From Nitrososphaerota archaeon (GTDB taxonomy: Archaea; Thermoproteota; Nitrososphaeria; Nitrososphaerales; JACPRH01): a DNA stretch of 64,000 nt. Below the pieces are notes generated by a model that was not told the DNA's origin, did no database searches, and saw nothing but the letters and a program-made list of their open reading frames with translations. Location of the stretch: NCBI GenBank assembly GCA_016190055.1, contig JACPRH010000006.1, forward strand, positions 1 to 64,000. Reading direction: 5' to 3'. The translations under genes and the position numbers were made by a program. Shown in pieces: positions 28,787 to 49,960 of the stretch (positions within the stretch are counted from its first letter, which is position 1; every line of letters starts with the position of its first letter).

Positions 28787-28789
28787 GCT

Positions 28790-31758: not shown

Positions 31759-31803
31759 ATAACTGCATCTAGATGTCGCTAAGTATTTATTTCGGCGAAG
31801 GTA

Positions 31804-33219: not shown

Positions 33220-33359
33220 TTAGTCGTAATTGCGAGCTTTGAGAGGGCTTGAGACTTCAGGTAGAAAGACACTCAATTATTGGAACTGATGAAGTGGTCG
33301 TGTTAAGCCGAAGCGAGAGAGGTGTTTTCGCTACTGGATTTGGTCTCAAAACTTACGCG

Positions 33360-34298
33360 TTATCTCTTTCGTCTTAGAAGGGCTATTGCCAGCAACGCAG
33401 CAATCGTTGAAGCACCTATTGCCCAAGCATATGTTGAAGAATCCGTTCTCGTTTCGATGGTAGTGGGCCCCGTGACTGTGGTAGCCTCAACGGTTTTGGA
33501 GCCTGTGACGGTTATAGTTTCAGTGATTGTTGTCGTGGTTGTGAGGGCTACTTGGGGAAACGTGATGTAGACGGTAGTGGTCACTGTCTTGAGCGGCCCA
33601 GTGGTGGTGTTGGATGTAGTTGAGGGGCCTGCGAGCTGGGGAATGTTGGTGTCCTCGATTATCCTTTCCATCCTCACCGAGTTCCCACAGTTGTCTGCTG
33701 AGCACAAGTCCACCTGCTTGACTCTGACCAAGGTTTCTTTGTCAAACCATATCGTCGAGTTCGGATAGTCGGAGTTTGGGTAGAACCCCACCACGTTGAA
33801 TTTGTAGGCCTGGTAGGTGCGTCCATTTAGTCCTTTGACCTCTTCAAGCGGTGGGTGTTCGCTCATCACAGTCTTGTTAGATACTGTCAAGTAAGAATCA
33901 GTTAGCCCCTCAGCAAAGCCAGATTGTTCGACCCTCTCGTCGAGTTGTCCCCGCCAGCCCTGTGGGAAATTGGTTGGGATTTCTGCGCCGAAAGTCTCTA
34001 TCCGTATCTGGTTGAGATAGGGCGTAGTATCATTGATCATCGTAACCCTCATGTGCACCGTTCCAGTCACCCCCGATACAGTCACTGAAAACAGGTACGT
34101 CACGTAGTCCCCGACATTCATCCACTTTGGTCGAATCAGATCATATGATGAACCAAGCGCGGACGCATCCTTAATCAGGGGTGCAGTGAAGAGTAGCAGA
34201 AGAAAGACAAACATTATCGGGAATAACGCGGTTCTCTTCAAAGACAACAGTAAATATCGTGGAAGCAACCCATAAGTTTTGCATTTGTTGGCTAGCAC
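33360..34298 (-). CDS. secreted, membrane-anchored protein of unknown function
   Basis: A 312-residue surface protein. A signal segment (about 21-47) ends at ALGSS. A beta-rich domain of about 180 residues (YVTYLFSVTVSGVTGTVHMRVTMIND, YKFNVVGFYP, IWFDKETLVRVKQVDL) contains a CSADNC pair. Then come a stalk made mostly of Thr/Val/Ser (ITETITVTGSKTVEATTVTG) and a C-terminal helix with basic end (LALLRRKR-like). Stalk and anchor resemble those of the PQQ-like protein. No catalytic motif or family is recognised. It diverges from the next gene. Confidence 0.7.
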   Translation of the reverse strand: MLANKCKTYGLLPRYLLLSLKRTALFPIMFVFLLLLFTAPLIKDASALGSSYDLIRPKWMNVGDYVTYLFSVTVSGVTGTVHMRVTMINDTTPYLNQIRIETFGAEIPTNFPQGWRGQLDERVEQSGFAEGLTDSYLTVSNKTVMSEHPPLEEVKGLNGRTYQAYKFNVVGFYPNSDYPNSTIWFDKETLVRVKQVDLCSADNCGNSVRMERIIEDTNIPQLAGPSTTSNTTTGPLKTVTTTVYITFPQVALTTTTTITETITVTGSKTVEATTVTGPTTIETRTDSSTYAWAIGASTIAALLAIALLRRKR

Positions 34299-34324
34299 CC
34301 CAGATCCTGACCGTCGATAACAAA

Positions 34325-35239
34325 ATGCAGAATAACGCTAGCTCCTCAAGCACCGTTGCTTTGACCCAGCCAAGCGAGCCTGAATGGGTGACATATGCTA
34401 GGAGCCTCTTGGAGGAGAGCAGGACAGATATCAAAGTCGCCCGGATGTTGTCGAAGTCGCCATCGCCGGGGATGCAGAGGAGACGGCTCTTCTTTCTCCA
34501 GCAGTCAATGGAGAAGGCGACCAAGAGCATCATGCCGATCATAGGACCAATGGTAATGAACCTGTCCAAGGTTCTCACGTTCGGGCACCTTTTGGGAGGC
34601 AGTGGCCTTCGCGATGACAAGGCGCTGGAAGCCCTTACCGAGAGGGCGAGACGGCTGTTTAGGGAGTACACGGTAAACACGCGGGACGCTCCCAAGAAGC
34701 TGGGCCATGATCCCTCGGAGAGATTGCAGATCATGTCGCTGCTCGAATCCCTCTACAGTTACTCCAGAACAATCGGGCTGGATCAGGAAATAGTTGACAA
34801 CATACAAAACACGCTGGCGTCATTCAAGGAAGACGAGCCATCCAAGATTATCGCGCGGATAGAGGGGGAGGAAACACGCAGGGAACAGTTGGTGCAGAGG
34901 AAAGAGGAATTGAAGTCTCGCATGTCAACGCAGGGTCTCAGCCAGCAGCAGCGTTCAGTAGAGTTCTGGAAACTGATTGTGGTGCCGGGCCACTTGATTG
35001 ACATGATGGAAATCGTCCTGTACTTCCGCTTATGCTCATGCCTTGCACAGTTTGAGCAGGCAAGCCGGTATCCCGAGGAGCAAGTGCCGAAGCACCTTAT
35101 GGACAGCCTCGACATCATCGACTACCGAGCAGCCAAGTTAATCGAAAAATGCGCCAAGTTGTATAAAGATCCATGGGCCATAAGAACGTGGGACAATATG
35201 CTCCAGGAAGAATCTGGGAGGAGCGACATGGCCTGCTAG
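34325..35239 (+). CDS. HEPN-like helical protein, hypothetical
   Basis: A 304-residue soluble helical protein (ATG 34325; an upstream in-frame ATG at 34259 would overlap the divergent gene). Residues 20-75 resemble a HEPN domain: ARSLLEESRTDIKVARML followed by RRRLFFLQQSMEKATKSIMPI, the family's QQ-x2-EKA-x-K helix. No clear R-x4-6-H ribonuclease motif is present, so it may be a non-catalytic HEPN protein. The middle (IARIEGEETRREQLVQRKEEL) is a likely coiled coil. HEPN proteins are frequent in defence islands, which fits its place on this element. Confidence 0.55.
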   Translation: MQNNASSSSTVALTQPSEPEWVTYARSLLEESRTDIKVARMLSKSPSPGMQRRRLFFLQQSMEKATKSIMPIIGPMVMNLSKVLTFGHLLGGSGLRDDKALEALTERARRLFREYTVNTRDAPKKLGHDPSERLQIMSLLESLYSYSRTIGLDQEIVDNIQNTLASFKEDEPSKIIARIEGEETRREQLVQRKEELKSRMSTQGLSQQQRSVEFWKLIVVPGHLIDMMEIVLYFRLCSCLAQFEQASRYPEEQVPKHLMDSLDIIDYRAAKLIEKCAKLYKDPWAIRTWDNMLQEESGRSDMAC

Positions 35240-35562
35240 GACATGGATCTACCCAAGAATGCGCACTAGCAGCAGAGCACAAGATGAGGGCAGATTTTGA
35301 GCTGATAAATCAAGTCAAGTGTAAGGTGACAAGTAGCTTTTGAGGCAAAATTCTTCAGTCACCTCTTGCAGACAGGTGCTAGATGATAGCTACTAAGCAT
35401 GATATGCTAAAGGTGAGCCTTTTTCAAACTGGGATAATTTGAGGACTATGGAGCTTATGCCGATTTTAGTGTCCTTTGCTTAGGATGTATTGAATTGGAA
35501 AAACTTCGCTTAAGGTCACAGATATCGCGAGTAGAAGGAAGTAGACTTGGCTTTCTGTGTTA
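35240..35562. other. intergenic region, nothing identified
   Basis: About 320 bases between the HEPN-like gene and the 3' end of the AbrB-tailed gene on the opposite strand. AT-rich, with no tRNA, repeat or open frame that I can support. Confidence 0.35.
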
Positions 35563-36156
35563 TTATTCAAGTTTTATCTTTGCCTTTCTGAGTATAACGT
35601 TGCCAGAGGAGTCTTGGAGAAAAGCTATGTAATCACCTGTCTGAAGTTGAAGTTTCTTAATAATTTCTTGAGGCAACCTGACAGCATTTTCGTTCTCGAA
35701 CTTGGAAAAACGAGGACTGCCAGAAGAACTGTCTTCAGCTTTTTGATCCACTTCGGTTTGCTTCTTACAATACTCAGTTTCATACCAGTCAAGCAAGTAT
35801 CGGTATTGCTGAGGTATTTCCTCGGGACTTGGAGTTATTTTGCCTTTTTCTCTTGATGGATGATACGGGTCTCCAGGGCGATATAGTCTGAACCATCCAT
35901 TGCTAACAGCTAAAAGTTTTCTGTGTATATCGGGTTGAGCTTTTCTGTTGGCAACGCAGTGCGAAGAAATATGTGTGGTGAGTGTAGAATCGGATACCTG
36001 CAACAGGCCTAGTTGCTTTGCCTTTTGAAAGATTTCTTTATGACTAAATTTATCCCTGCTCGTATTTTCTTGGTGAAGAAGAGCGGTCGCTATCCAAACG
36101 ACTGCAGCCGTTGATGGCCCAGTCGAATATTTTTCGAAGTCTATCTCAGACGCCAT
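35563..36156 (-). CDS. two-domain protein: N-terminal helical domain plus AbrB-like swapped-hairpin domain
   Basis: A 197-residue protein. The first 110 residues look like a winged-helix-type domain found near restriction genes (ATALLHQENTSRDKFSHKEIFQKAKQLGLL, HISSHCVANRKAQPD, GWFRLYRPGDP). After a charged linker, the last 50 residues form an AbrB/SpoVT-type hairpin (FENENAVRLPQEIIKKLQLQTGDYIAFLQD). AbrB domains bind DNA as dimers, so this is probably a regulator, perhaps of the nearby defence genes. The N-terminal assignment is pattern-based only. Confidence 0.6.
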   Translation of the reverse strand: MASEIDFEKYSTGPSTAAVVWIATALLHQENTSRDKFSHKEIFQKAKQLGLLQVSDSTLTTHISSHCVANRKAQPDIHRKLLAVSNGWFRLYRPGDPYHPSREKGKITPSPEEIPQQYRYLLDWYETEYCKKQTEVDQKAEDSSSGSPRFSKFENENAVRLPQEIIKKLQLQTGDYIAFLQDSSGNVILRKAKIKLE

Positions 36157-36422
36157 ACATCAATATTACCCCTAAATCTTTATATAAAGATTACGCAAAT
36201 TTCTGAGAGGCTGTTTACCAGGGCTGGCGATAGCTATGCTTTTCTGAAGTGCAGGATGCATCGTCTATCCGCTTTGTTGGCAGGGTAAGTAATCAGGCAT
36301 ACATCACCCTAAGACGAAATACAGTCTAGGAAGACGATTGAGCTTCTAGGGCATGTATCACGTCAAGAAGTTTTCTCAGGAGGATGACTCGATATCGAAG
36401 TTGCTGCTTGAGTGGTTGGTCG

Positions 36423-37385
36423 TTATCTGTGACTAAGCCCAACAATTTGATCAATATCGCTGCGGTTGAGCTTGATTCTTGCGAGTCCTTTATCTCTATT
36501 CGCCCTAAACCAACTGACCCTTTCATCCAGCTGAGTCTCCCAAGCAGATGAATCAACCTTTATTTTCCTAATGATACTAGAGGCCGTTGCTGAAGGCCAA
36601 GCGCTCTTAACTTCTATTACGTACAAGATCTTTGATCCCTTTATTCTCGCTAATGCATCAATTTCCCCACATGGTAAGTCCTTAACATGCCACACTTGAC
36701 ATCTTAATTGTTTGAGTTTATCTCTAACCTTCTGCTCAAATTGGTGGGTTGTCTTATTTTGGTATTTTATAAAGTCGAATTCCGTCTTGATTAGTTCCCT
36801 TCGAACGTATTCAGTGTAAAGCATCCCTGCTCTACTAAGCGCAGTCGCACCAAAAATTACGTACACATGCTTACGCGAGCTTGCCACTCTTACAATTGGC
36901 TTGAAGACTACGCTATCAGTATTGCCAAAGAATTTGTACCATTTCCACTCGGCACCTAGCACTGGACTCTCAAGATAGGAAATTATCGCCTCGACAACTT
37001 CATTCTTCAGGTTTAATGTCGCTGATGCTTGATCAATTAACTTACTCAGCTCCATGAATTTAGCCTCAGAATAAAACAGGGTTGGATTAATAACACAAAT
37101 AGTGCTAACGAACTTGATGAACCGAAGCATATCAGTTAGTTTGAACCCAAACGTGCGAACAAATCCTTCGTCGAACGGCTCCCCCAAGCGAATATACCCA
37201 TTACTTTCTGAACTTGGGTTAGATTCAAGATATTTGTCGCTGTCTATTAACGCGTCAAAATAGTTAGTTATAGCGGCATCATATCCTTTTTCTAAATGCA
37301 CACTTATGACCGGTCTCATGCACCTCGACCGCGTCATTAGTTCTAGAATAGTGAAGATAATCTGAAGTATAACATAGTCCGACAA
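36423..37385 (-). CDS. PD-(D/E)XK nuclease domain (3' part of a frameshifted gene)
   Basis: A 320-residue frame whose last third is a PD-(D/E)XK nuclease: helix Glu217 (HQFEQKVRDKL), then GEIDALARIKG (Asp243) and YVIEVKSAW (Glu258, Lys260), the full D-(E/x)-K core. The preceding 200 residues are helical. It overlaps the frame at 37279-37770 by 107 bases in the +1 register, and both look like natural protein only up to the A-run at 37287-37291. Removing one A there gives one protein of about 450 residues. If genuinely separate, ATG near 37319 is the better start. Confidence 0.65.
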   Translation of the reverse strand: MSDYVILQIIFTILELMTRSRCMRPVISVHLEKGYDAAITNYFDALIDSDKYLESNPSSESNGYIRLGEPFDEGFVRTFGFKLTDMLRFIKFVSTICVINPTLFYSEAKFMELSKLIDQASATLNLKNEVVEAIISYLESPVLGAEWKWYKFFGNTDSVVFKPIVRVASSRKHVYVIFGATALSRAGMLYTEYVRRELIKTEFDFIKYQNKTTHQFEQKVRDKLKQLRCQVWHVKDLPCGEIDALARIKGSKILYVIEVKSAWPSATASSIIRKIKVDSSAWETQLDERVSWFRANRDKGLARIKLNRSDIDQIVGLSHR

Positions 37386-37770
37386 GACAATCTGTCAATC
37401 TAGCGAGACGAGCCTTGGTATCTCTATCAATGGGTCCTGAGCTTTCGCTGCCAGAGTTTATCACCGCTTCAACAAGATATCTATAGATAACGGCAAGCTC
37501 ATTTTTCTCTTGCTTCTTCTCGCTTTCCCCGTAAATTGCATATATTGAAGTAGTTTCAAAGTCTTGGTATATCTTGCGGAGTGCATCCTGTCTAGAAAAT
37601 TTTCTCAAGGTTGCAGTAATCTCTTGGTGGAATCTATTGGCCAACTGATTCACGATACGCTTAGCTTCATCCCCACTGAAAGTGCCTGTAGCACAGACGT
37701 CTAGCACAAGTTCTCTGAACTCATCTGTCAGGATATGTCTTACACCAAATTTGTCCTCAGGGTGGCTCAA
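37279..37770 (-). CDS. N-terminal part of the frameshifted nuclease gene, or a separate helical protein
   Basis: A 163-residue helical frame starting at TTG 37770 (no ATG is available; the next upstream in-frame stop is 14 codons earlier). No family is recognised. Its final residues (HETGHKCAFRK) run straight into GYDAAITNYFDAL of the neighbouring frame if one A of the run at 37287-37291 is skipped, so it is most likely the front of the PD-(D/E)XK nuclease gene. About 150 bases separate it from the zinc-ribbon gene upstream. Confidence 0.5.
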   Translation of the reverse strand: MSHPEDKFGVRHILTDEFRELVLDVCATGTFSGDEAKRIVNQLANRFHQEITATLRKFSRQDALRKIYQDFETTSIYAIYGESEKKQEKNELAVIYRYLVEAVINSGSESSGPIDRDTKARLARLTDCLVGLCYTSDYLHYSRTNDAVEVHETGHKCAFRKRI

Positions 37771-37920
37771 GAGAGTAAACTGGATTGTCTGAAGCCATTG
37801 AAATATAGTTTACTCGCAGCAGGAGTCATGCTAAGCCTTCAGTTGCTGGCAGGTGATTTGCAATTGTTGGTCACAAGGACTTTACAGAGTCCCTTACTAC
37901 CTGGTGAGCGATGTCTCCGA

Positions 37921-38946
37921 TTAAGAACTAGTTCCGTCTTGTTGTTCGCTTTCGGCAAAGCGCCTGCGAACTTCTGCGCTGAATTTATCGACAGCTTCAG
38001 GTGATAGTAGATCTAAGAGCCTTTCAAGTCTATGAAGCAATTCGTATCTTCGGAGATTCTCAGGTGTGTCATCAGGGATCTTAAGATATGTGGCTAGCCC
38101 TATTGACTTGCTGGTCTCCCTCTTCACCTGAGGATCCTTCAGCAATTCTGCGCAGTATTCCCCTAGCCCAATGATTATTCTTTTGAGGAGATTCCTCAAT
38201 CCAAAACAATAGACGAAGACCATTAGTCGCTCTCTAGCTAGCCCCAAATTAGCTAAATCTTCAGATTCCTTGCTTTTTACCCCGCTGAGACATTCGAACA
38301 ATGTAGTGAATACTCTGTCCGAGTAGAACGAACCGGCCTTCATGGGAAAGCCTAGTGATCCTGGATCAACCCAAACCCCGAGGTTGGGGTCATAATCGAC
38401 GTATAGTGTCGCTCGCCTTAAAGATTCTAAATCTTGGTATACGTTGTCTAGCTGATTTACCCATATCTTGAGAAGTTTCATCAGCTTGACGGCAGCCTTG
38501 ATGCGTTCATCGTGGTTCATAAACCTCTTATAGTAATCTTTGTCATAATCGAGATCCTTTCTTGACATAATGTACTCGAATGCTAGACCAGCTTTCCCCA
38601 CCTCCTGCATAGAATGGTGAAGAAGCGAAAGCGACGTGACTACCCTTGGGTAATCCATCTTGGACATGAACGTTCCTACTTCTTTATCACTTAGCTTCCC
38701 GATATCAGCGTCGCTTACGTTCATACACCAGTCGTAGAGGTCAGGTTCTGCTGACTTGAGAAGAAAATCAGCATCGAGCAGAAGCCTCGCTGCGTTAGAA
38801 GCTGCTAAAGTTGCGCACAAGTAAAGGCTACCCCATTTAATGCAACGGCAATAATGCTCTTGCCTCGATCGCCCTAAAGGGAATAGATAACCACCGGGCG
38901 GCTTCTCCTTACCGCAATTAGGGCAAATTTCCATATGTATCGGCAC
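37921..38946 (-). CDS. zinc-ribbon helical protein of unknown family
   Basis: A 341-residue protein, family not recognised. The start carries CPNCGKEKPPGG (Cys9, Cys12) and HYCRC (about 32-35), a four-ligand zinc site. The remainder is almost entirely helical with many charged residues. It is the first gene after the cysteine desulfurase on the same strand (140-base gap), so it may be a late member of the phosphorothioation operon or have its own promoter. A zinc ribbon plus helical body suits a nucleic-acid-binding or scaffold role, but this is a guess. Confidence 0.6.
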   Translation of the reverse strand: MPIHMEICPNCGKEKPPGGYLFPLGRSRQEHYCRCIKWGSLYLCATLAASNAARLLLDADFLLKSAEPDLYDWCMNVSDADIGKLSDKEVGTFMSKMDYPRVVTSLSLLHHSMQEVGKAGLAFEYIMSRKDLDYDKDYYKRFMNHDERIKAAVKLMKLLKIWVNQLDNVYQDLESLRRATLYVDYDPNLGVWVDPGSLGFPMKAGSFYSDRVFTTLFECLSGVKSKESEDLANLGLARERLMVFVYCFGLRNLLKRIIIGLGEYCAELLKDPQVKRETSKSIGLATYLKIPDDTPENLRRYELLHRLERLLDLLSPEAVDKFSAEVRRRFAESEQQDGTSS

Positions 38947-39086
38947 TTCAACCAGAGATATAAGCTAGTTTCAATGTCGCTGTAAAGTCATCAACTAGCG
39001 CTGAACAAATCACACCCTCAACAAATCGTTAAATTAAGAGAGCGCATTTTCAACCAAAATAAGGCCTAAATTTTTCCAGATAATTA

Positions 39087-40271
39087 TCAGTTTAGAGCAG
39101 AAAAGCTACTGACTGCCTCAGATATTATACTGCTCGCTTGCTCTACTTCGCTTCTAGTGGTAAACCGGCCAAGTCCGACTCGGATAGTGCTATAGGCGTC
39201 CTCTCGCGATAAGCCAATCGCTAATAGGACATGCGAAGGCTCTGGTGCGCCCGAGGCACAGGCTGAACCAGTGCTAAGGATCAGTTGGGGCATATTCACG
39301 ATCATAGCTTCTGCCTCTATCCTTGGGAATGTTAAGCTACTATTACCCGGGAGCCTATTGGAAATTGCACCGTTAATCTGCATGTTATCAATTTGTGAGT
39401 ACAGATTCTCTTCAAATAAGTCTCGCAAAGAACTGATGTGACTAGCTTCTTTGGGTAGTTCCTTTGAGCTGATGGCACAAGCTTCTCCAAAACCTACGAT
39501 GCCGGGTACATTAAGGGTTCCTGATCTAAGGTTATGTTCTTGGCCACCTCCTATTAGGAGCGGCTTTAATGGGAATGAGTGAGGTCCGTCGTTTATGAAA
39601 AGCGCGCCTACACCTTTGGGTCCATAAAGCTTGTGAGAACTGACAGAAAGCAAGTCTATTCCCCACATCCTAACATTGACTGGAATTTTACCCACTGCCT
39701 GGGCAGCATCACAATGCACAACTGCGCCTCTATCATGCGCCATCTCCACGATTTGCGGAATAGGCTGTAAAGTTCCGATCTCGTTATTGGCTGCCTGAAC
39801 AGAAACCACTAGGGTTCTATTGGTAATTACCTTTCTCGCTGACTCAAGATCAACAAGACCAGTTCTATCCACTGGCAGAAGTTTGATGGTATAGCCTAGT
39901 TCGTGACACACATTTAAAACAGATTTATGTTCAATTGGCGTCGTCACAATTTCGTTTCTTTTACCTCGATACGCTCTAGCAAATCCCTGTAAGGCGAGAT
40001 TATTGCTCTCTGTGGCACCTGCTGTGAAGATTATCTCTTCAGGCATGGCTCCCATGATCCCGGATATTTGCATACGTGCCTTTTCCACCGCTTCAGCTGC
40101 TTCTTGACCACAGGGATGCAATGAACTAGATGGATTTCCAAACTTCTCTATGAAATAGGGTAACATAGCGTTCAATACACGTGTGTCACAGGGGGTTGTC
40201 GCATGATAGTCCAGATAGATCGCTCTTGCTAACTGATTTTGCTCAGGCTTCCTACGATTCATGCTAAGCAT
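39087..40271 (-). CDS. sspA: cysteine desulfurase of the phosphorothioation system (SspA/DndA-like)
   Basis: A 394-residue PLP enzyme that takes sulfur from cysteine onto its own cysteine as persulfide. IYLDYHATTPC opens the fold, TAGATESNN and HKSVLN line the cofactor site, Lys214 (SSHKLYGPKG) is the Schiff-base lysine, and Cys338 in STGSACASGAPEP is the catalytic cysteine on its loop. The motifs equal IscS/NifS, so sequence alone cannot tell a housekeeping enzyme from a Dnd/Ssp one. The call rests on its position at the end of the sspB-C-D operon, 46 bases after the DGQHR gene. No IscU-type scaffold is nearby. Confidence 0.85.
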   Translation of the reverse strand: MLSMNRRKPEQNQLARAIYLDYHATTPCDTRVLNAMLPYFIEKFGNPSSSLHPCGQEAAEAVEKARMQISGIMGAMPEEIIFTAGATESNNLALQGFARAYRGKRNEIVTTPIEHKSVLNVCHELGYTIKLLPVDRTGLVDLESARKVITNRTLVVSVQAANNEIGTLQPIPQIVEMAHDRGAVVHCDAAQAVGKIPVNVRMWGIDLLSVSSHKLYGPKGVGALFINDGPHSFPLKPLLIGGGQEHNLRSGTLNVPGIVGFGEACAISSKELPKEASHISSLRDLFEENLYSQIDNMQINGAISNRLPGNSSLTFPRIEAEAMIVNMPQLILSTGSACASGAPEPSHVLLAIGLSREDAYSTIRVGLGRFTTRSEVEQASSIISEAVSSFSALN

Positions 40272-40317
40272 CCCAGCGTTATTATATTAGAATTGTATAG
40301 GATCGGTAAGTCAGCGG

Positions 40318-41613
40318 TCATGGATACCGTAATAACTCGACTTCTTTCTTTTCTATGTTGAGCCGACCAGCAAGTTTCTTCCTCAAGTCATCTTCAGTTA
40401 CTTTTAACTTTGCAAGATGTCCACCGACGCTATAGAACATCAGTAATTCAGCTGCTTTCTGGTTCTCCGGTTCAGTTTTCATTACGCTGCTAGATGGATC
40501 CCAGAGTAGACCCACCCAGGGTTTGTTACTTAACATCATGGGCACCTTAGATATACGTTCGATTGCTGCATCAAGAGAAAGTTTCTCGTAAAACATCAGA
40601 TTACGGATTACCCTTGTTGTAATGAGTAGGCCCATAGGTCGAAATAGTAGATGTCCCCCGTCAGAGCTTCGGTATTGTCCCGCCACCTGCTTTTCTGGTT
40701 TACTCTCTTTCATTTCTTGGACTTGCGGGAAATACTTGCATAGTGTATCCCAGAAACGTGTTGAGTCCTTGTAAAGTTCCTTAAGTTTATCATCTGATGG
40801 GCGCTTTGTCCTAAACCTCTTCCACGCTTTTGTGGCACTACCCATACTGAGATAGATGTTTAGACAATCATAAAGAGCAATGATACTTGTAAAACTTTGC
40901 TTGTCCTTTACCGAGACACTTTTTGGCATCCTCAAAGATATTTTTTCTTGGAAAAGAGAATAGTCCTCAACTAGATCTCTCGTAATTATTGCTACTGCAT
41001 CATCTTCGTCCAACGCGATAGTATCTTTCTTTCCGACTGGCTTGGCATATTTATTGAGGGTGGTAAAGAGACGTCTTGTACGCTGAAACCCTTCTGGATC
41101 CTTATCCCTTTGTGTCTGGGTAATAGCCGCAACGAATATTACAGAAATCTCCTCGTTCGCAAGTTTAGGATCGTCACGAATAGCATCTCGGATGCCCTGC
41201 ACTCTATGCTGTCCATCAATGGCGAACAACGTTTCATGCCCGTCAAGCCTCAGAATGCCTAAGGCCCCTTTAATGTAATCAGGTAATTCTTCTGAAAAAG
41301 TGATTGGCATATCACGTATGGATAACTCGAACCAGTTAGGATTGCCTCCGTAAGCACCCACAACTAATGAATTGAAGAACCGTTGATCCTGTGTCTTCAA
41401 ATATTCTGCTATATCCTCGGCTCTGGGTTCAAGGCTCCGTTGAAGAAGCTCCTGTAATCGCTTACTGGAATGTATCTGCTGGACTATGTTTATTCGTTTA
41501 ACAACTTCACTCATCTTCATGAATGAAATATAGTAATGCCATATACCCATATGCGCTTTAAGCGCGGGAAGCACCAAAACTTCATTATTATCTCTATTTT
41601 CTGAATTACTCAT
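40318..41613 (-). CDS. DGQHR-domain protein (DndB-like)
   Basis: A 431-residue protein with DGQHR at 133-137 (TLFAIDGQHRVQGI) and the downstream RRLFTTLNKYAKPVGKKD block of the DGQHR/DndB family. DndB proteins bind phosphorothioated DNA and repress dnd operons; the related DGQQR motif of DUF262/SspE is an NTPase site used in phosphorothioate-sensing restriction. Whether this copy regulates or takes part in restriction is open. It overlaps the GIY-YIG gene by four bases (ATGA type), so the two are translated together, probably in equal amounts. Confidence 0.8.
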   Translation of the reverse strand: MSNSENRDNNEVLVLPALKAHMGIWHYYISFMKMSEVVKRINIVQQIHSSKRLQELLQRSLEPRAEDIAEYLKTQDQRFFNSLVVGAYGGNPNWFELSIRDMPITFSEELPDYIKGALGILRLDGHETLFAIDGQHRVQGIRDAIRDDPKLANEEISVIFVAAITQTQRDKDPEGFQRTRRLFTTLNKYAKPVGKKDTIALDEDDAVAIITRDLVEDYSLFQEKISLRMPKSVSVKDKQSFTSIIALYDCLNIYLSMGSATKAWKRFRTKRPSDDKLKELYKDSTRFWDTLCKYFPQVQEMKESKPEKQVAGQYRSSDGGHLLFRPMGLLITTRVIRNLMFYEKLSLDAAIERISKVPMMLSNKPWVGLLWDPSSSVMKTEPENQKAAELLMFYSVGGHLAKLKVTEDDLRKKLAGRLNIEKKEVELLRYP

Positions 41614-42101
41614 GGAAACGCAGCCTTCACAACAGGATTTAGCTCTGCTCCGAACTCGTCATTACAAGGAGGGATATATGCACTTCTTAACTTATGTTCA
41701 ACATCGTCAAGCAATGCCTTATCCACTTCTGTATAATAGAACCAAATATTGTTGTTATACAACGTTAGACATCTAAAGATCTTTGGACGCCCGCTCTCTC
41801 GCCGCTCGGAAGTCAGATACTCCCCAAACCTACGTCTTAGGGAATCTGTTTGTCCCACATACATCAAATAAGCGCAATTTGGATGATTGGCAATGCTCGG
41901 CATTACAACCAGAGTATAAATTCCTGACTTGGCCGGAATGTTACGCTTTTCTGAATCCACTAGCCTGTAACTACGCCAGTTATGCGTATCAACATAAGTC
42001 GCCCAATATTTGGGCGAAAGCGCAAACGAGTAGACATAGCTCATCAAGTCACTTTGCTTACCAACCATATCTACGTGTTCTAAAGGTTGCATACTAAGCA
42101 C
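41610..42101 (-). CDS. GIY-YIG nuclease embedded in the phosphorothioation operon
   Basis: A 163-residue protein that is mostly one GIY-YIG domain after about 55 N-terminal residues. All catalytic landmarks are in place: SGIYTLVV (60-62), MYVGQT (81-83), the arginine at 90/91 (SLRRRFGEY), the metal Glu135 (DDVEHKLRS) and the closing PPCN (Asn147). It should therefore be an active, metal-dependent DNA nuclease. It overlaps sspD by 22 bases and the DGQHR gene by four, which makes it an integral member. Candidate role: cutting DNA that lacks, or carries foreign, phosphorothioate marks, guided by the DGQHR partner. Confidence 0.85.
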   Translation of the reverse strand: MLSMQPLEHVDMVGKQSDLMSYVYSFALSPKYWATYVDTHNWRSYRLVDSEKRNIPAKSGIYTLVVMPSIANHPNCAYLMYVGQTDSLRRRFGEYLTSERRESGRPKIFRCLTLYNNNIWFYYTEVDKALLDDVEHKLRSAYIPPCNDEFGAELNPVVKAAFP

Positions 42102-42916
42102 CCATCCTGGTTATCTCGATCGATATCGAATTGTCCAGAAAATATCTCTACTAGCGTACTGTGCTGGTTCCTAGCAGTCTCTTGAGCCATACGTTTGGCA
42201 TCTTGCTCTATTATTTGTTGGATGCGCTGGGGCTTTGATAGTTCATCCAAGCCTTCCCTTTGGGACCATGTATAGTCGAGTTCAGGTTTCTCATACCCCT
42301 TTGCCTTTTCAAACAAGTCGGGATGGTTCTTAAGGAGACCTACCCATTCAATACGACGCTGGAAAAAGCAGAAGTAGCAGCCTGAACGAGTGCGCCACGA
42401 ATAATAATTTGGCATACCGATTCCGCTTTCTTCAAGGATCTTGAAGACGTCTCTTTTAGATATTTTAGCGTCCTTAAACGGATAGACTGGCGTGATGTTG
42501 GGCTTAGTCGAGATATAGCCCTGCCTATTCTCATCGCCCCTTATTGCTATGTATAAGCGGACTGAGTCATCGCCTATGTACACCTCAAATGGCTCAATCT
42601 TTAGCTTGCGAGTACACCAGCGTACTTGAGGTGACGGCAAGTAGTTTCGATACACGGCTAGCCAATGGTCGAAACCTCTTTCTCCTCGCTTAGACGATAA
42701 TCGGACTATTGGCTTACCTAGGTAAGATTCGACTTTATTGAGAAACTCATAAGTCTCCGGCAACTCCTTGTGAGTATCGCAAAAGACGTACTCCATGTTT
42801 ATTTCAGGATGGTTGTTCTTCATGTAGACGCTTAGGGCAGTGCTGTCTTTTCCGCCTGAAAGCAACAGTATATGTCTGATGGGTTTTGCGTTGTCCATGT
42901 TAGTTCTCCTTTTCAT
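42080..42916 (-). CDS. sspD: PP-loop ATP pyrophosphatase / PAPS-reductase-like protein (SspD/DndC-like)
   Basis: A 278-residue enzyme of the adenine-nucleotide alpha-hydrolase group. The PP-loop SGGKDS is at 20-25. Cysteine pairs follow: Cys101 in RWCTRKLK and CYFC (180-183) in SGCYFCFFQRR, arranged like the cluster ligands of PAPS-reductase-type DndC/SspD; a last CLVC lies at the C-terminus. In phosphorothioation, this protein activates the DNA phosphate with ATP and passes sulfur from the desulfurase. Overlaps of 17 bases with sspC and 22 bases with the GIY-YIG gene show tight coupling. Confidence 0.85.
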   Translation of the reverse strand: MKRRTNMDNAKPIRHILLLSGGKDSTALSVYMKNNHPEINMEYVFCDTHKELPETYEFLNKVESYLGKPIVRLSSKRGERGFDHWLAVYRNYLPSPQVRWCTRKLKIEPFEVYIGDDSVRLYIAIRGDENRQGYISTKPNITPVYPFKDAKISKRDVFKILEESGIGMPNYYSWRTRSGCYFCFFQRRIEWVGLLKNHPDLFEKAKGYEKPELDYTWSQREGLDELSKPQRIQQIIEQDAKRMAQETARNQHSTLVEIFSGQFDIDRDNQDGCLVCNL

Positions 42917-45900
42917 TCAAATACTTTTGAGACGCAAGAGCAAGTGCAGCTAAGTGTAGTTGCCTGTCTTCATTTAAGCTCTTTTCAAGGATATTTATAA
43001 TCTTTTCCGCCATCTCGTTAACTTCTTGACTTCTCTCCACGGCTACCGAGATTAATTGTGTCTCGTTTGAGCGAACATCTAAAAGTCCAATGCGAATGAT
43101 TAGGGGTGCACCTGTGCGATTAGTCTCAGCCACCATTTCTTCAAGCGCTGCAAAATCATTTGTTAACTGTCGCAATTGAACTTGAAAGTTTAGAATATCT
43201 GTATCATTCCACTGGGATGGAGGCACCCCACGGTTTATGACCCGAGCAAAAACTTCTCGCCAGTCGCGGTCTCCTAATCGACCGACTTCTCGGACAAACA
43301 AGGCTAAGGTGCCCTCAACCACATATTCGTCTAGCTGTCTTGCTCGTTCAACTATTCTTCGGCGAGCTTCATCCGACTTGTCGGGTAACCTAAATGCAAT
43401 CCGCACTTGTGCTTCAATTTCATCCAACAGCTGAGGATACGCATGTTGGAGTTCAATCAGACTTTGTTTCAGTTCTTTCGCAAATGTAGTAACATCCTCC
43501 TCGCTTTGCAAGTTCAAGCCAAGGGCTACTGGAAGCTGCTGAAATACCAATGAATATGGATCACGTGCTTCAAGGAGCGCATCCCTGACTTTTGCAGAGT
43601 GAGCAAATTTGAGGCGCTTAGTACGTTTCGTATAACCTGGAAGACTTGCAACAAACATCACAAGAGGCTTGACTACCTGAAGTAAAGTAAGTTTCATCTT
43701 AGTATCGACTTGCCAGCCGATAGATTCGATAACTCTGTTGATCGCTTCGAATGCCTCACGCTGGTTCTTATTGACAGCATATCGTTGGACCTCAAACAGT
43801 TCAGGAACGCGTGTAAGCATCTCGAAAACTTCGATACTGGGTTCAGGTATGAACGTTCCATTTTGGTATAATGCTACATCATCCCTATTCGCTAACAGAA
43901 GAGCACAAAACAAGACCGGTATAGGCCCGTCTCGCAGCCCGTAGGGTGGTGACTTGAGCCGAGCAAATAATTCCATCACTGGTTTGCGACCTGAACGTGT
44001 ACTGGATAAGAAACCCTCCATGGACCTCCAAACGGGTAACCATTGTTGATTTGGCTGCCCAAAGCACAACTTTCCACCCCGACTTCTGTAGAAGCCTCCA
44101 TTTTCCAGTAAGGCATGAAACATGCTTGCCTCTGCAGGATTACCTTCAATCCCGAGGTTGGGCTTGCCCTCACCGTTAAACATAGCTTGCAACAGATTAC
44201 GACGAGCCGCTACCGCAGCTGGTGAGATATTCTCACGGTTTAATAGCTCATTATTGAACACGGGGGATTTATCGTATACCTTCTCGCAAAGCTCTGAAAT
44301 CCATTTCATGAACTCTGTAGCGGATGGAGGGTTGTGCATTTCCCCGGATTGCACCCAATCTGAGGCTGTTGGGTCTAGTGGGTATCCACTTGCGCCGAAG
44401 ACATTACCTGCAATATCCAGCAACCGTTTCCTAGATTGCGTCATCCTTGCTCGCACTTCTTGACGTGCTACTGGATCGCCTTGTAGCGCTTGAATGTTCT
44501 CGTTAATCCATGTCCATATCTCAAATTCATGTAGCGCCTTTTCCAAGCCGGCTATAGGTCTTGGGCCTGCGACGATTCGTAGTAGACCCCTTGAACTGCT
44601 GTTTTTTTGTAGACGCTTCACCTCATCTAGTATCTTGCTGCGCTCCTTTTCGTTAGAGGTTACAATGAACAACAGTTGCCCATCGGCTGATCCCAAATCT
44701 CTTGTCATGGACTCTTTTAGATTATGATTGCGCCCACTGATAACATCCACCTCCAAGTATCGTAAAGTGCCTGTAAGGACGTAATGCCTTCGAGCGACCA
44801 ACGGCCGTAGCGTGACTAGCTTCTTCAACTGTTCGGCAGAGTCCTGCGTAGGCAAGCGCATTTCGGCCTCATGATAGCAGGCTTCTAGGTCAACATCAGA
44901 GCCCTCCCATAAGCCATAAGCATCTTCGTGACGTCGGTATACAATTATTTTAGCGCCTTCTAGATATTCAATCGCCTCATCTACACTCGGATCGTTAATT
45001 GCCAAGCCTAGTGTTTCTTTTGAAGCTCGCAATCCAGTGGGCAGGCCATACATACCCAGCAATCCGATCGTTTTTACAACACTTTTGGCTAATTGTGGCG
45101 CATCAGCATTTACTCTATGCAATGCATGATCAATTTCTGCCCAGCGTCGCGACCTATTACTTGCAAATACTGCACTTGCCATATTTGTCACGATATAATC
45201 ATAAAGAGAGTCTATCCTGTAAAATGACACGGCTTCTGTGTTAGATGTGTTTAGGTGTGTAAACTCCCTGAATCCATAAGGCTCCTGCCCTGATAGGAAT
45301 GAGAACAAAGAACGTTCATTTTGAGCCATTTCACTTCTAAAAAGAGGCCAAAGGATAAGGGCAGTTAATGGGTGCAAAGGAATGCAAGATGGTAGTAATT
45401 CATCAATAGGTAACCGCCTAGTTGCCTCTTTTAAGGCAGGTGCTTGTAGTATGCGGCTTAGTTGTTGCGCATATTTTTTCTCCACCTTAGCAGGATATTT
45501 TCTTTCAATGGCTGCTCCAATGAGACGCAATATTTGTTCAGGCGGTTCCAAAAAAGGCATATCGATGAAGCGGCCCTGAACTTTCTGCCACTCCCTACGC
45601 TGCGTCTCTTCGACTTCGCGTAAATAGTCAGAGAACGCAGTATGGAGAATAGTTACCAAGAGTATAGGTGGGTTACCTCGATTTGTTGCTTCGGCTAACT
45701 GTTGTATAACGAACAAATCTTCAGTGTCTATATGTTGTGCAGTGTATTCGAGAAACTTACCGAATTCATCAATAATCACGAGTAACCCGGCATAGCCATT
45801 GTCGCCGACCACCGCAGCGGCTTCTTCAAAGAGGGTAACAAGTTCGGACCCAGTAATTCTTTGATTCTGCGCAGCTTGCTGGATGCGCTTGGCTAGCTTT

Positions 45901-46295
45901 GGTACAATCGGCAGAACACTTTCACTAAGTCTATCAAGCAAGGCAGGGACCAACTGAGACCTTTGACCTACTACAAGAACAGGCAAGAACGGCTTATTTC
46001 CCACATCTAGTTCTTTTCTAAGCAGTTGTCCATCTGTGTTCAACGGCTTGCTGTTGGCTAATACATCGGTGAGAAACAGAGCAAAAGCAGATTTTCCTGT
46101 CCCATATGGTCCAGTAATTGACCAAGCTCTAGAATTGGTTTCTGAAAGCCCACTTCTTACTATTTGCGATGCCAGCTTACGCGCAGTTGGCGTTAGAAGA
46201 TATTCATCCAGTCCCCGTTTATCGCTCCAATCACGAACCAGCTGAGTTGAGCGCTGAAAGCGCGAGTGTATTGTTAATGTTTCTTTAAGTGTCAA
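42900..46295 (-). CDS. sspC: large P-loop ATPase of the Ssp system (SspC-like)
   Basis: An 1131-residue ATPase. The Walker A motif GPYGTGKS is at 62-69 and the Walker B motif LLVIIDEFGKF at 171-181. A conserved EDLFVIQQLAEATNR stretch and the later MPFLEPPEQILRLI follow. The rest is a long helical region with no other named motif. Such ATPases accompany DUF4007 and PAPS-reductase genes in Ssp modification clusters and resemble in layout the BrxC/PglY ATPases of BREX. It probably drives opening or scanning of DNA during modification. It begins 25 bases after sspB. Confidence 0.82.
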   Translation of the reverse strand: MTLKETLTIHSRFQRSTQLVRDWSDKRGLDEYLLTPTARKLASQIVRSGLSETNSRAWSITGPYGTGKSAFALFLTDVLANSKPLNTDGQLLRKELDVGNKPFLPVLVVGQRSQLVPALLDRLSESVLPIVPKLAKRIQQAAQNQRITGSELVTLFEEAAAVVGDNGYAGLLVIIDEFGKFLEYTAQHIDTEDLFVIQQLAEATNRGNPPILLVTILHTAFSDYLREVEETQRREWQKVQGRFIDMPFLEPPEQILRLIGAAIERKYPAKVEKKYAQQLSRILQAPALKEATRRLPIDELLPSCIPLHPLTALILWPLFRSEMAQNERSLFSFLSGQEPYGFREFTHLNTSNTEAVSFYRIDSLYDYIVTNMASAVFASNRSRRWAEIDHALHRVNADAPQLAKSVVKTIGLLGMYGLPTGLRASKETLGLAINDPSVDEAIEYLEGAKIIVYRRHEDAYGLWEGSDVDLEACYHEAEMRLPTQDSAEQLKKLVTLRPLVARRHYVLTGTLRYLEVDVISGRNHNLKESMTRDLGSADGQLLFIVTSNEKERSKILDEVKRLQKNSSSRGLLRIVAGPRPIAGLEKALHEFEIWTWINENIQALQGDPVARQEVRARMTQSRKRLLDIAGNVFGASGYPLDPTASDWVQSGEMHNPPSATEFMKWISELCEKVYDKSPVFNNELLNRENISPAAVAARRNLLQAMFNGEGKPNLGIEGNPAEASMFHALLENGGFYRSRGGKLCFGQPNQQWLPVWRSMEGFLSSTRSGRKPVMELFARLKSPPYGLRDGPIPVLFCALLLANRDDVALYQNGTFIPEPSIEVFEMLTRVPELFEVQRYAVNKNQREAFEAINRVIESIGWQVDTKMKLTLLQVVKPLVMFVASLPGYTKRTKRLKFAHSAKVRDALLEARDPYSLVFQQLPVALGLNLQSEEDVTTFAKELKQSLIELQHAYPQLLDEIEAQVRIAFRLPDKSDEARRRIVERARQLDEYVVEGTLALFVREVGRLGDRDWREVFARVINRGVPPSQWNDTDILNFQVQLRQLTNDFAALEEMVAETNRTGAPLIIRIGLLDVRSNETQLISVAVERSQEVNEMAEKIINILEKSLNEDRQLHLAALALASQKYLNEKEN

Positions 46296-46320
46296 AGTTA
46301 TTCACAACCTTGGGCTTTTC

Positions 46321-47238
46321 TCATTTCTTGTAATAGTTGGCTAGGATGTCTATCAGCCTAGGTTGTGGTCTCGTTTTTAGTAGTATTCGGGTCCCCGCAG
46401 TATCACCGTAAGACAATCCGCTCCAAGATGGAAGATTCTCCAATCGCTCAGCAATCGCGTTTTCACTCATCTTGAAGGCAGAGCCCGGGCTTCCTGGTGC
46501 ATAAGATAAAGTCTCGAAAGATACCGTTCCTTGATTTGGTAAAAGATGAGTCCAGAAATCTAGGAGCGCAAAAACAAAGATTTCATTTTGTAGTAGAGGC
46601 TTCGGACCTCGCACGAACTCGTAAATCCCATGTGCCGTTTCGACGATCAGGCCTAACTCTACTAGAGGACAATCAAATGTATCCTCTCGAGGTCGTGTAG
46701 GAGTCACTTTTGACTGGATGTATGTCCTCAGGAACACATCAACATCTCTTTTTAATGAGGCTGGACTCGCTTGTGAAGTTGGAGATCTGGCAATTATCTT
46801 TAGCAATCTTTCAACTATATGTTGCTCCGTGAACTCTGAAAAATTCCACCGAGAGAACATGAGGTACCATGTTGATGCTCGCTCGGGTTTACTAACGAGC
46901 AACCAATGTAGGAGCCACAGTGTAGTTTGATGTTCTAGATATGGATCCCACCCATCTTTACCAAAGACCGCTAACCCTATCTCGGTAGGTCGGTATCTTG
47001 AGCGATCAATCGGCTCGATTAGATTCAAGGCCTCACACCAATGTCGTATTGAGGCGACCATATTCTTGCCGACACCAAGGATTACAACTGCATCATCGCG
47101 GAAAAACAGGTCAGGATATTCTTGTACCTTCTGTACACCCTTGGTTAACCAAGTATAACGGAAAGGAAAGGTCTCATGTCCACTGAATCTATAACGAACA
47201 TCTTCATCACTTAGTTGAGGCAGAAACTGGTAGGTCAA
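46321..47238 (-). CDS. sspB: DUF4007 protein, SspB-like nickase candidate
   Basis: A 305-residue DUF4007 protein, first gene of the operon. The N-terminal signature RYRFSGHETFPFRYTWLTKG (16-35) and VILGVGKNMVASIRHWCEA (about 51-69) are the family hallmarks, followed by the GWDPYLEHQTTLWLLHWLL helix. In described Ssp systems SspB is the nicking protein that opens one strand for single-stranded sulfur insertion. I recall the DUF4007 link from that literature; no separate nuclease motif is obvious here. The start is TTG 47238 after a ggtgag site. Possible TATA elements lie at 47303-47310 and near 47340-47357. Confidence 0.8.
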   Translation of the reverse strand: MTYQFLPQLSDEDVRYRFSGHETFPFRYTWLTKGVQKVQEYPDLFFRDDAVVILGVGKNMVASIRHWCEALNLIEPIDRSRYRPTEIGLAVFGKDGWDPYLEHQTTLWLLHWLLVSKPERASTWYLMFSRWNFSEFTEQHIVERLLKIIARSPTSQASPASLKRDVDVFLRTYIQSKVTPTRPREDTFDCPLVELGLIVETAHGIYEFVRGPKPLLQNEIFVFALLDFWTHLLPNQGTVSFETLSYAPGSPGSAFKMSENAIAERLENLPSWSGLSYGDTAGTRILLKTRPQPRLIDILANYYKK

Positions 47239-47513
47239 TCACTCACCATGGATACTGGCTTCAGACCTTCTAGATTTTGGCTGAGTTCACTGACGCCTCT
47301 TGCCATATAATCGAAGCCAACTATGGCTTGATACGTTTAATATCTATAATTAAACCTTTTAGTCCCGCTACCGAAGTAAAGCCTTGCGGAATCAAGCGTA
47401 TCTACCTAACTGGTCTGTATAATAGCGGTCAAAAAGGTCAGAAACTGGTACAGATCCCGTGAGAGGCACTTTAACTAATCTGCAGAGAATCACATATAAC
47501 GCATTTTATCATT

Positions 47514-47687
47514 TTATTGGTTTGCCGGCTTGATGATCCCTTTCTTGATGTAGATTCTGTCTCCTTCATCGTAGAAAAGGATGTAATCACCTTCGTCGAG
47601 CCTACCGAGCCGTTCCTGAATATCCTTAGGGATAGTGATCTGCCGTTTTGCTGTAACTTTTGCCCTTTGGATAGGCTTGTCTTGCAT
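47514..47687 (-). CDS. AbrB/SpoVT-family DNA-binding protein
   Basis: A 57-residue swapped-hairpin protein from the ATG at 47687: KVTAKRQITIPKDIQERLGRLDEGDYILFYDEGDRIYIKKG, the standard AbrB/MazE pattern with the TIPK turn. A 35-residue upstream extension in frame is probably not translated. It lies about 275 bases upstream of the ssp operon on the same strand and is divergent from the secreted protein, so it is a candidate local repressor. No toxin gene is attached, so it is not clearly an antitoxin. Confidence 0.8.
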   Translation of the reverse strand: MQDKPIQRAKVTAKRQITIPKDIQERLGRLDEGDYILFYDEGDRIYIKKGIIKPANQ

Positions 47688-47790
47688 AGAAACCCCGAAT
47701 CTAGAAACAGCATAAAACAGTAGCCAAGGAAGTAAGGAATCATAGAAATACTTAAATCCAGAATCTAGAAAAATAGCAAAAGGTGGAAGC

Positions 47791-49341
47791 ATAACTCAGC
47801 TTACTATAAAGAGGCGCAAAGGTGCAAGCAAGACCATACTGATAGTAATTACTCTTCTCATCATAATTATTTCCGCGATACTACTTGCTATCTCTTCAAT
47901 ATGGCTGATGCAGTCATCACAGGACGTGCAAGCAGCACAAAATGATGTGAAGAAGGCCTGCGAGAATTTAGCTCAATCAGTGCTCAGTAACATGAATACA
48001 CCAGGCTATGCCGCGAGTCCTGAGATACAGCGTGGATTAGATAGGTGCGTAAAGGATGGGTATATTACGAGAAATCTGCTTAGTTCGACCTCCACTAGAA
48101 CATTTATTACAAGCACTTCTAACACAATTACATCCACAACATCTAACGGTAACTCGTTGCCGCTAAAGCTTCAATGGGTGAAGGAATGGGGGAATTCAGG
48201 TGATGATGCTTATCGGGTGGCAACCGGCAATAGTGCTACCTACCTGCTGATCGCCTCATCAAACGATTACATTCACTCTTGGAATGGTTATCTAGTCAAG
48301 TATGATTCTGCGGGGATTGTAAAGTGGTTCAACCAGCTGTATGAGAAGCCTACTGACTTGGCGGTAAAAGGAGATTACGTGTATCTTGTAGGGGAGCGCG
48401 GAGACTACGGCGGCCCGCTTCCAACCGCTAAAAGATCCTGGTCAGATATGTTCCTGATGACGTATAACTCAGAAGGTAAGCTTCTGCTAAACAAGACCTA
48501 CCCTGAAGAGTCTTGGAAGGGCGGCTTCGGAGCCTCAACTGACAGAGAAATCCCGAAAAAGGTGGTGGTACTAGATGATAAGATCCTCATCGCAGGAGTT
48601 AAGCTGCCTTGGATAGGAGGTGCTGGATCATTTGGCACCGGTGACTTCCTTATTCTAAGCTTGGATCTTCAAGGAAACATGCAGTGGCATAAGTCTTGGC
48701 CTAGTTCGACTCTGAAAAAGGAGCTGTTCTATCCTAGCAAAATCGCGATAACTGACAGTTTCGTCTATCTAGCGGCCACGCTGAGTCCGTCTAACGGGTT
48801 CCAGCGGGTCTTGATTGAGAAGCATGATTTTGATGGAAGCCTGAAGTGGAACAGGACCGTTGAGAAAAAAGACTGGGCGTATATTGACGTAGAGTCTATC
48901 GCCGCGCAAGATGGTTCGATATACATTGGAGGCCACGTGTCTCGATTCGTGGATGGGCGAACCGAAGAGAGCGATGTTCTACTAATGAAATACAGCGCCG
49001 ACGGGACGCTAGAGTGGCAGAAGATTTGGGGCGATAAGGGGGCTGATAAAGTTAAGAGCATCGTTGTGACCCAAAACACGCTCTACGTAGTGGGGACCAT
49101 CGGAGTTCAAAACCAAGTCACAGGGACATACTACCCGTATCTTTTCCTGCATAAGTATGCTCCCAACGGTTACCTTCTTTACCAAACAACCTGGGCAAAG
49201 TCGATGCTTCAATCACCTATGCCTAATTCAGATATAACCGATGAAATCTACCCGAGTCAGCTTGCAGTAAATCAGGACTCAGTATACGTTGCCGGCCGAA
49301 CATTCTGGGATGGGGGTTTCCTGCTGAGGTATGGGGGGTAA
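47791..49341 (+). CDS. membrane-anchored secreted beta-propeller-like protein
   Basis: A propeller-type surface protein of about 516 residues. The first ATG in frame (47908) would begin after the membrane segment. The frame upstream reads KRRKGASKTILIVITLLIII..., a clear basic-plus-transmembrane N-terminus, yet it contains no ATG, GTG or TTG. An ATA at 47791 sits four bases after an aggtgg ribosome site and is the best-placed start, possibly a mutated ATG. After an S/T linker (about 105-125), repeats of the type YDSAGIVKW, YNSEGKLLL, LDLQGNMQW, HDFDGSLKW, YSADGTLEW form propeller blades. No enzyme motif is seen. Confidence 0.6.
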   Translation: MTQLTIKRRKGASKTILIVITLLIIIISAILLAISSIWLMQSSQDVQAAQNDVKKACENLAQSVLSNMNTPGYAASPEIQRGLDRCVKDGYITRNLLSSTSTRTFITSTSNTITSTTSNGNSLPLKLQWVKEWGNSGDDAYRVATGNSATYLLIASSNDYIHSWNGYLVKYDSAGIVKWFNQLYEKPTDLAVKGDYVYLVGERGDYGGPLPTAKRSWSDMFLMTYNSEGKLLLNKTYPEESWKGGFGASTDREIPKKVVVLDDKILIAGVKLPWIGGAGSFGTGDFLILSLDLQGNMQWHKSWPSSTLKKELFYPSKIAITDSFVYLAATLSPSNGFQRVLIEKHDFDGSLKWNRTVEKKDWAYIDVESIAAQDGSIYIGGHVSRFVDGRTEESDVLLMKYSADGTLEWQKIWGDKGADKVKSIVVTQNTLYVVGTIGVQNQVTGTYYPYLFLHKYAPNGYLLYQTTWAKSMLQSPMPNSDITDEIYPSQLAVNQDSVYVAGRTFWDGGFLLRYGG

Positions 49342-49400
49342 AGTCTTAATTGCTTCTCTATCTCTATAGTGAATGCTTCAACTTGCCGAACAGCGACCAT

Positions 49401-49574
49401 ATGCATCACCAAAAGGCTAGCACAAAAGATCAAGCACCTGCGACATTATCTACAGAGGATATTGCTAGCAATGATTCTTGCCCGAGCTGCGGCATGGCAT
49501 TGGACGAGTCTGGTTCTTGCATATTTTGCGGTTACCCGGGCCTCGACCCAGACGAGGAACTCAATGATGTATGA
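49401..49574 (+). CDS. zinc-ribbon miniprotein
   Basis: A 57-residue acidic protein (ATG 49401; longer upstream frame possible). It ends in a compact ribbon, CPSCGMALDESGSCIFCGYPG, with two CxxC pairs ten residues apart, then an acidic tail. The cysteine spacing is regular enough to support a real gene. It follows the secreted propeller gene by about 60 bases in the same direction. Confidence 0.55.
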   Translation: MHHQKASTKDQAPATLSTEDIASNDSCPSCGMALDESGSCIFCGYPGLDPDEELNDV

Positions 49575-49842
49575 AGATAATACCTTGCCTAAACATTTCG
49601 TTTGAACCCTATCCCAAAATAGCTTGCGTAATCATGCGTGCAACGGCCTAAGCCTTCAACAATTGGCGAAGTTCAAACCCAAAAGAGCTCCTTAAATGGG
49701 AGACGGGGGCCTAGCAGTGGTGGATGGGTTTGCATGTGGCTCGTGAAAGGAGCTACATTGAAAAAATCCTACCTTCCTTGATAGTTCTCTTTCAGGCAAC
49801 TTGTACAAGATGCATGCTATACTTTCAAGGTTGAGTTTGAAG
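49575..49842. other. gap with a possible small hairpin RNA
   Basis: Contains an eight-base perfect inverted repeat, AGCTCCTT (49686-49693) and AAGGAGCT (49747-49754), enclosing 53 G-rich bases. It could be a structured RNA or chance. No open frame of note. Confidence 0.25.
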
Positions 49843-49956: not shown

Positions 49957-49960
49957 ATAC

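Follow-up and report, generated by a model that had tools for sequence, protein, structure and literature searches.

The Ssp phosphorothioate (PT) modification cluster of a Nitrososphaerota archaeon harbors two overlapping genes, coding for a GIY-YIG endonuclease and a divergent DndB-family protein with a DGQHR motif, which recur as a pair in many bacterial phyla and are found in association with both Ssp and Dnd modification genes. It is somewhat probable, in our estimation, that the pair constitutes a self-contained, mobile, PT-dependent sensor-nuclease module, and it is probably a virus-defence module that is missing from the defence catalogues. The observations behind this reading are the pairing itself, the overlap of the genes, the conserved active sites, the co-evolution of the two proteins, their links to both PT systems, the exchange between these systems and the carriage on mobile DNA.

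Genomic context of the archaeal gene pair

The window is the whole stretch of 64,000 nt that was analysed, and loci in other genomes are numbered with the prefix L. Six genes of the window, all read from its minus strand, form a co-directional Ssp run in the order sspB, sspC, sspD, GIY-YIG, DGQHR and sspA. The features of the locus are as follows:

31665..54143, strand not applicable: integrated element of about 22.4 kb with the Ssp cluster, flanked by direct repeats at 31665-31768 and 54043-54143
31804..33219, plus strand: site-specific recombinase-like ORF of 471 aa by the left repeat, assigned by reading the sequence and not by a profile
39087..40271, minus strand: sspA, cysteine desulfurase (PADLOC), 46 nt after the DGQHR gene on the same strand
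40318..41613, minus strand: DGQHR protein of the divergent DndB family, 431 aa, ATG start, candidate PT/NTP sensor
41610..41613, minus strand: ATGA, the 4 nt in which the stop of GIY-YIG and the start of DGQHR overlap
41610..42101, minus strand: GIY-YIG endonuclease, 163 aa from GTG; the ATG at 42092 is the likely true start
42080..42916, minus strand: sspD, PAPS-reductase-type sulfurtransferase (PADLOC SspD, 8.8e-113)
42900..46295, minus strand: sspC, AAA+ ATPase (PADLOC SspC, 1148 bits)
46321..47238, minus strand: sspB, DUF4007 (PADLOC SspB profile)

SspA, SspB, SspC and SspD were all matched by PADLOC, as is expected of an Ssp modification cluster. A sequence-only reading of this DNA had called the two ORFs of the pair, and their coordinates, strand and 4-nt ATGA overlap all check out. 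The overlap of 22 nt with sspD that it reported applies if the GTG start is used and shrinks to 13 nt with the ATG at 42092, which is situated near the starts of the homologues. The same reading had seen no SspE, DndFGH or Pbe in the element, and this was confirmed by the wider search: no Dnd, Pbe, SspF, SspG or SspH gene was found in the window, and neither an SspE-type DUF262 gene nor SspH in the source genome, which is 87.5% complete. This genome also yielded no GHKL-like protein of ~815 aa in a search run without a positive control. An AbiV/HEPN-like gene (37921-38946) and a NERD-like gene (36423-37385), both scoring below curated cut-offs, are located downstream of sspA in the same element.

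Conservation of the pair across genomes

An alignment of the DGQHR partner was searched against 84,980 species genomes and the best 80 of 189 relatives were kept; one relative from viral contigs, the plasmid loci and the window brought the number of mapped loci to 85. These DGQHR relatives are distributed over many bacterial phyla and one other archaeon. A GIY-YIG gene is located directly upstream on the same strand in 81 of the 85 loci, a proportion that describes the paired clade and not all DGQHR proteins, as the loci were picked by similarity to paired proteins. The two genes overlap by 4 nt in 33 and by 1 nt in 15 of the 81 paired loci (48 together), and no fused GIY-DGQHR gene was found. 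Among the exceptions, L035 starts at a contig edge, and in its genome sspD and a GIY-YIG gene share a contig, while L038 shows only a short ORF upstream with a contig edge close by. Two loci exhibit other arrangements: in L022 (7775-11215), a lone DGQHR gene of the paired type lies directly behind a CD-NTase-like ORF and an HNH effector gene, a CBASS-like setting without GIY-YIG, and in L023 (8609-11251) the DGQHR gene follows, in place of GIY-YIG, an HNH nuclease whose N-terminus reads like a sulfur-binding domain.

Searches of 72,556 plasmid records with each protein separately returned the same five records, in which the genes are adjacent and in identical order. For the DGQHR protein, these five were the best and the only near-full-length matches, and a second family member used as query again found the same five records with both genes and no others. 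A single-protein scan of viral contigs and a DNA-level search of E. coli gave no match. The two genes are a real and widely conserved PT-linked module, which supports this part of the sequence-only reading.

The GIY-YIG nuclease

The complete GIY-YIG active site described in the sequence-only reading is present in the window protein with G60-I-Y62, Y81-V-G83, R91, E135 and N147, of which Y62, Y81, R91, E135 and N147 make up the catalytic set. Residues G60, Y62, Y81, G83, R91, Y95, R105 and E135 are 96-100% conserved in 81 homologues, R105 being specific to this family of GIY-YIG proteins, and position 147 is occupied by N in 65% of them and otherwise by S or C. An N-terminal segment of the nuclease with W42 and P56 is likewise conserved. 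Since the active-site residues are conserved across these 81 relatives, the enzyme looks catalytically competent.

The window protein alone scores 17 bits against PF01541, below the gathering cut-off of 22.6, and 20 of 70 family members match this profile at E<0.01. A profile built from the 70-member alignment matches UvrC GIY-YIG crystal structures (E 1e-4), and the AlphaFold2 model (pLDDT 93.7) retrieves UvrC GIY-YIG domains in Foldseek at a TM score of 0.70 on the target. The GIY and YIG strands, the Arg helix and the Glu metal ligand of the GIY-YIG (URI) superfamily are all found. By these comparisons, the GIY-YIG proteins of the pairs are a divergent subfamily; no real model of this subfamily exists in PADLOC, which gave a single marginal match among the 70 members.

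The DGQHR protein and its relation to DndB and SspE

The DGQHR protein matches PF14072 (1.6e-30; 106.8 bits against a cut-off of 29.1) and TIGR03187 (9.5e-32; 110.8 bits against 58.85), and it stays below the cut-off of the DndB equivalog TIGR03233 (66.3 bits against 328). Its profile is homologous to that of canonical DndB across 354 columns (E 6e-29). Three motifs, Q58-R59, D133-GQHR-137 and F183xxxN187, are near-invariant and were listed as common to the DGQHR and DUF262 families (Machnicka et al., PMC4619093). Part of the invariance of the DGQHR motif reflects selection, as DGQH stood in one of two search patterns; QR and FxxxN are free of that bias. Conservation of QR, DGQHR and FxxxN would lend motif-level support to a PT-stimulated NTPase that gates a nickase.

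The AlphaFold2 model of the protein (pLDDT 91.8) retrieved no structure from the PDB at E<0.001. It matches viral proteins that carry the annotations DNA-sulfur-modification-associated, GmrSD N-terminal or DUF262, with partial TM scores, and the kinship to the SspE sensor domain and DUF262 is accordingly placed at the superfamily level. By sequence, the DGQHR protein is a divergent DndB-family (ParB/Srx-type) protein and a candidate PT/NTP sensor. In the phylogenetic tree, the paired DGQHR proteins form a single clade separate from canonical DndB (support 100). They are not simply a substitute for DndB, since canonical DndB is present in addition in six Dnd loci.

The sequence-only reading had interpreted the pair as an SspE split in two, with HNH swapped for GIY-YIG. 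This interpretation does not hold as homology: the sensor aligns to DndB and not to SspE, and the hhalign match to SspE relatives covers only 15 residues around DGQ-R with a probability of 1.6%. Neither protein, nor the genome that encodes them, has a match to PF03235, the DUF262 (GmrSD_N) domain of SspE, and no DUF1524 HNH domain exists in the same chain, the nuclease being a separate GIY-YIG protein. The underlying division into an NTPase/sensor chain and a nuclease chain survives in part: a ParB/Srx-type sensor fits the role of NTPase and PT reader and the nuclease is apparently intact.

Association with Ssp and Dnd systems

PT genes are found within ~10 kb in 66 of the 85 loci (Ssp in 50, Dnd in 14, both in two), and the remaining 19 loci are mostly fragmentary. 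Far from being confined to one Ssp cluster, the pair is carried by about 50 further Ssp-linked loci, so that the absence from all other Ssp clusters, which the sequence-only reading had named as a refutation, is not observed; and because 14 Dnd loci carry it, it is not Ssp-specific. Devosia marina (L047), Phaeovulum veldkampii (L053) and Roseobacter litoralis (L011) are cultivable organisms that have sspABCD together with the pair. About ten of 18 genomes without PT genes near the pair encode Ssp or Dnd elsewhere in the assembly. In L067 (Devosia aurantiaca), ~100 kb lie between the pair and sspB on one contig, which indicates that the pair need not adjoin the modification genes. The sspD gene directly precedes the pair in 29 loci, a slot that is occupied by SspE in other loci.

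Distance matrices from the 37 loci with all genes correlate strongly between the GIY-YIG and DGQHR proteins (r=0.92; Mantel 0/1000). SspB, SspC and SspD correlate among each other at 0.87-0.95, and the correlation of either protein of the pair with SspB, SspC or SspD reaches only 0.65-0.76. At least seven switches between Ssp and Dnd are needed by the DGQHR tree. Judged from these sequence data, the pair behaves like a cassette that moves from one modification system to another.

Frequency among Ssp loci and companion modules

For a sample based on SspB, 60 DUF4007 loci were taken from three groups with 1161 genomes in all. Four of these loci (~7%) carry the pair (Alphaproteobacteria 2/8, Bacteroidota 2/22, Chloroflexota 0/30), and it is absent from the other ~93%. 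None of the Nitrosopumilaceae Ssp loci that were examined contains it. The same 60 loci include three with SspFGH and two with a candidate SspE of the DGQQR type; PADLOC does not name the candidate in L284 SspE. In a published survey, 7.4% of sspBCD clusters were accompanied by SspE, 7.3% by SspFGH and 83.9% by neither, and the authors asked if further restriction partners exist (Wang et al. 2021, PMC8092258). In the SspB-based sample, the pair is about as common among Ssp loci as SspE or SspFGH.

Another known or likely effector module was identified in 38 of the 50 Ssp-linked pair loci. These companions include SspFGH (confirmed by PADLOC), Pbe-type helicase genes, a PLD/GHKL/DEAD trio, a GHKL-like protein of ~815 aa and SspE; they are found without the pair, and the pair without them (L267, L292 and the window). 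The pair and other restriction modules do not exclude each other in these loci, as SspFGH, Pbe and GHKL-type modules co-occur with the pair. SspE is seldom found together with it (two of 50 Ssp loci and one Dnd locus), in a sample that cannot show exclusion. The 14 Dnd loci and the frequently coexisting effectors argue that the pair is more than just the restriction half that an orphan Ssp system lacks.

Two of the companions are recurrent neighbors of Ssp clusters in their own right. The trio of PLD, GHKL-ATPase and DEAD-helicase genes occurs in 11 of the 60 SspB-sampled loci and matches no PADLOC system (e.g., L011:11477-15901; L055, L061, L064, L109 and others). The ~815-aa GHKL-like protein, which matches hardly anything in Pfam or PADLOC, adjoins Ssp clusters in six of the 60 (examples of the protein: L058:11242-13656; L087:11240-13642; L078, L085, L029, L018, L021).

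The integrated element and the origin of the archaeal pair

A genome of the same genus (G001) is continuous across the insertion site, with window positions 31.7-54.0 kb absent, and the repeats that flank the insert measure ~100 nt. The missing insert in this relative, the direct repeats and the recombinase-like ORF lead to the conclusion that the cluster reached the archaeon on an integrated element. The right repeat continues into a tRNA-like sequence, possibly tRNA-His, at which ARAGORN called no tRNA. An aroA-like gene (52061-53419) inside the element is 39% identical to the copy of the same-genus genome, and a second insertion of ~5.1 kb relative to that genome is found at window positions 24834-29986.

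The closest relatives of the window DGQHR protein in the tree are mostly bacterial and belong to Chloroflexota, a desulfobacterium and one archaeal metagenome-assembled genome. Vertical archaeal origin was ruled out: DGQHR is absent in 60 relatives, the Ssp loci of Nitrosopumilaceae are devoid of the pair, and 398 Thermoproteota genomes show only weak DndB-like matches besides the window.

Comparison with known systems

SspE (DUF262-DUF1524) resembles the pair in its linkage to SspABCD, often right after sspD, in its moderate frequency among Ssp loci and in the combination of a ParB/Srx-type domain with a DGQ-R motif and a nuclease, but it is a single chain with HNH, whereas the pair consists of two chains with GIY-YIG and a DndB-aligned sensor. 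DndI of the IscS-DndBCDE-DndI system likewise couples a PT-responsive ParB/Srx NTPase to a nuclease, at the Dnd mark; it is a one-chain DUF262-HNH protein in the dndFGH operon, while the pair occurs at Dnd and Ssp loci alike. With DndB (TIGR03233/PF14072), the pair shares the family and the DGQHR, QR and FxxxN motifs; its DGQHR protein differs by its separate clade and its near-constant GIY-YIG partner. SspFGH, DndFGH and Pbe are other modules that accompany these PT modification genes as alternatives, but their proteins are unrelated to the pair, and SspFGH and Pbe-type modules co-occur with it in many loci. URI/GIY-YIG nucleases near PT genes were reported for Dnd (Rakesh et al. 2024, PMC10853773), yet as standalone backups, and the available part of that paper describes neither a DndB-like partner nor an Ssp context. 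No description of the pair or of its Ssp association was found in a search of openly accessible article texts.

Proposed function and alternative explanations

In the reading we favor, the first gene would provide a GIY-YIG endonuclease and the second, usually translationally coupled gene a divergent DndB-family protein, which most likely binds DNA and presumably NTP and may read the PT mark introduced by SspABCD or DndACDE. The partner would control the nuclease, presumably in a physical complex, and direct the nicking or cutting to invading DNA that lacks the mark while marked host DNA is spared, resulting in phage restriction. Control could take the form of activation at PT, as in SspE, or of release at PT, as in DndI. 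A precedent exists in both of these proteins, in which a ParB/Srx NTPase domain reads PT and gates a nuclease (PMC9646914, PMC11662687).

As 38 of the 50 Ssp-linked loci carry another effector module, the pair may be an accessory of modification and not an effector. The DndB-like protein would then tune the PT frequency, the GIY-YIG enzyme would open PT sites or turn them over by nicking the DNA, and restriction would be left to SspFGH, Pbe or GHKL-type neighbors. A position inside the Ssp operon would suit such a role, as would the variety of the coexisting effector modules and the homology of the partner to DndB, the canonical form of which is a transcriptional regulator that represses dndBCDE (PMC4507180). 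However, published Dnd and Ssp modification works without the pair, no recognised companion stands beside the pair in the window, L267 and L292, and canonical DndB is present beside it in six Dnd loci. Moreover, it is often a unit of its own, convergent or divergent to dnd, unlike an autoregulator that heads its operon. We regard an accessory function, the main alternative, as unlikely.

A backup suicide effector, i.e., a nuclease that is restrained by PT or by the DGQHR protein and destroys host DNA when a phage inhibits the PT system, appears less plausible still. Rakesh et al. (2024, PMC10853773) put such a role forward for URI and NERD genes associated with Dnd modification genes, and other effectors are often co-resident with the pair. 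The genes described there sat at cluster boundaries and sometimes on the opposite strand, whereas the nuclease of the pair overlaps with a sensor gene as its constant partner and often lies within the operon. It is highly improbable that the pair is a passenger, a homing-endonuclease-like or selfish cassette of defence islands with no PT role. Mobile introns often contain GIY-YIG domains and the cassette does move between systems, but it is located neither in an intron nor in an interrupted gene, it is strictly paired with a PT-associated family, and PT genes are near most loci.

Significance

The pair is a testable candidate for a further Ssp restriction partner of the kind asked about by Wang et al. 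2021 (PMC8092258), and it bridges Ssp and Dnd. The chances are about even that a two-chain combination of a DndB-type reader and a GIY-YIG nuclease represents a further, modification-system-agnostic class of PT-dependent restriction, in which one cassette is swapped, in bacteria as well as archaea, between Ssp, with its single-strand marks, and Dnd, with its double-strand marks. The DGQHR half is filed as DndB (DNA sulfur modification protein) in public databases and is thereby hidden from view. If the reading is true, the DndB family would comprise not only transcriptional regulators but also proteins that control nucleases directly.
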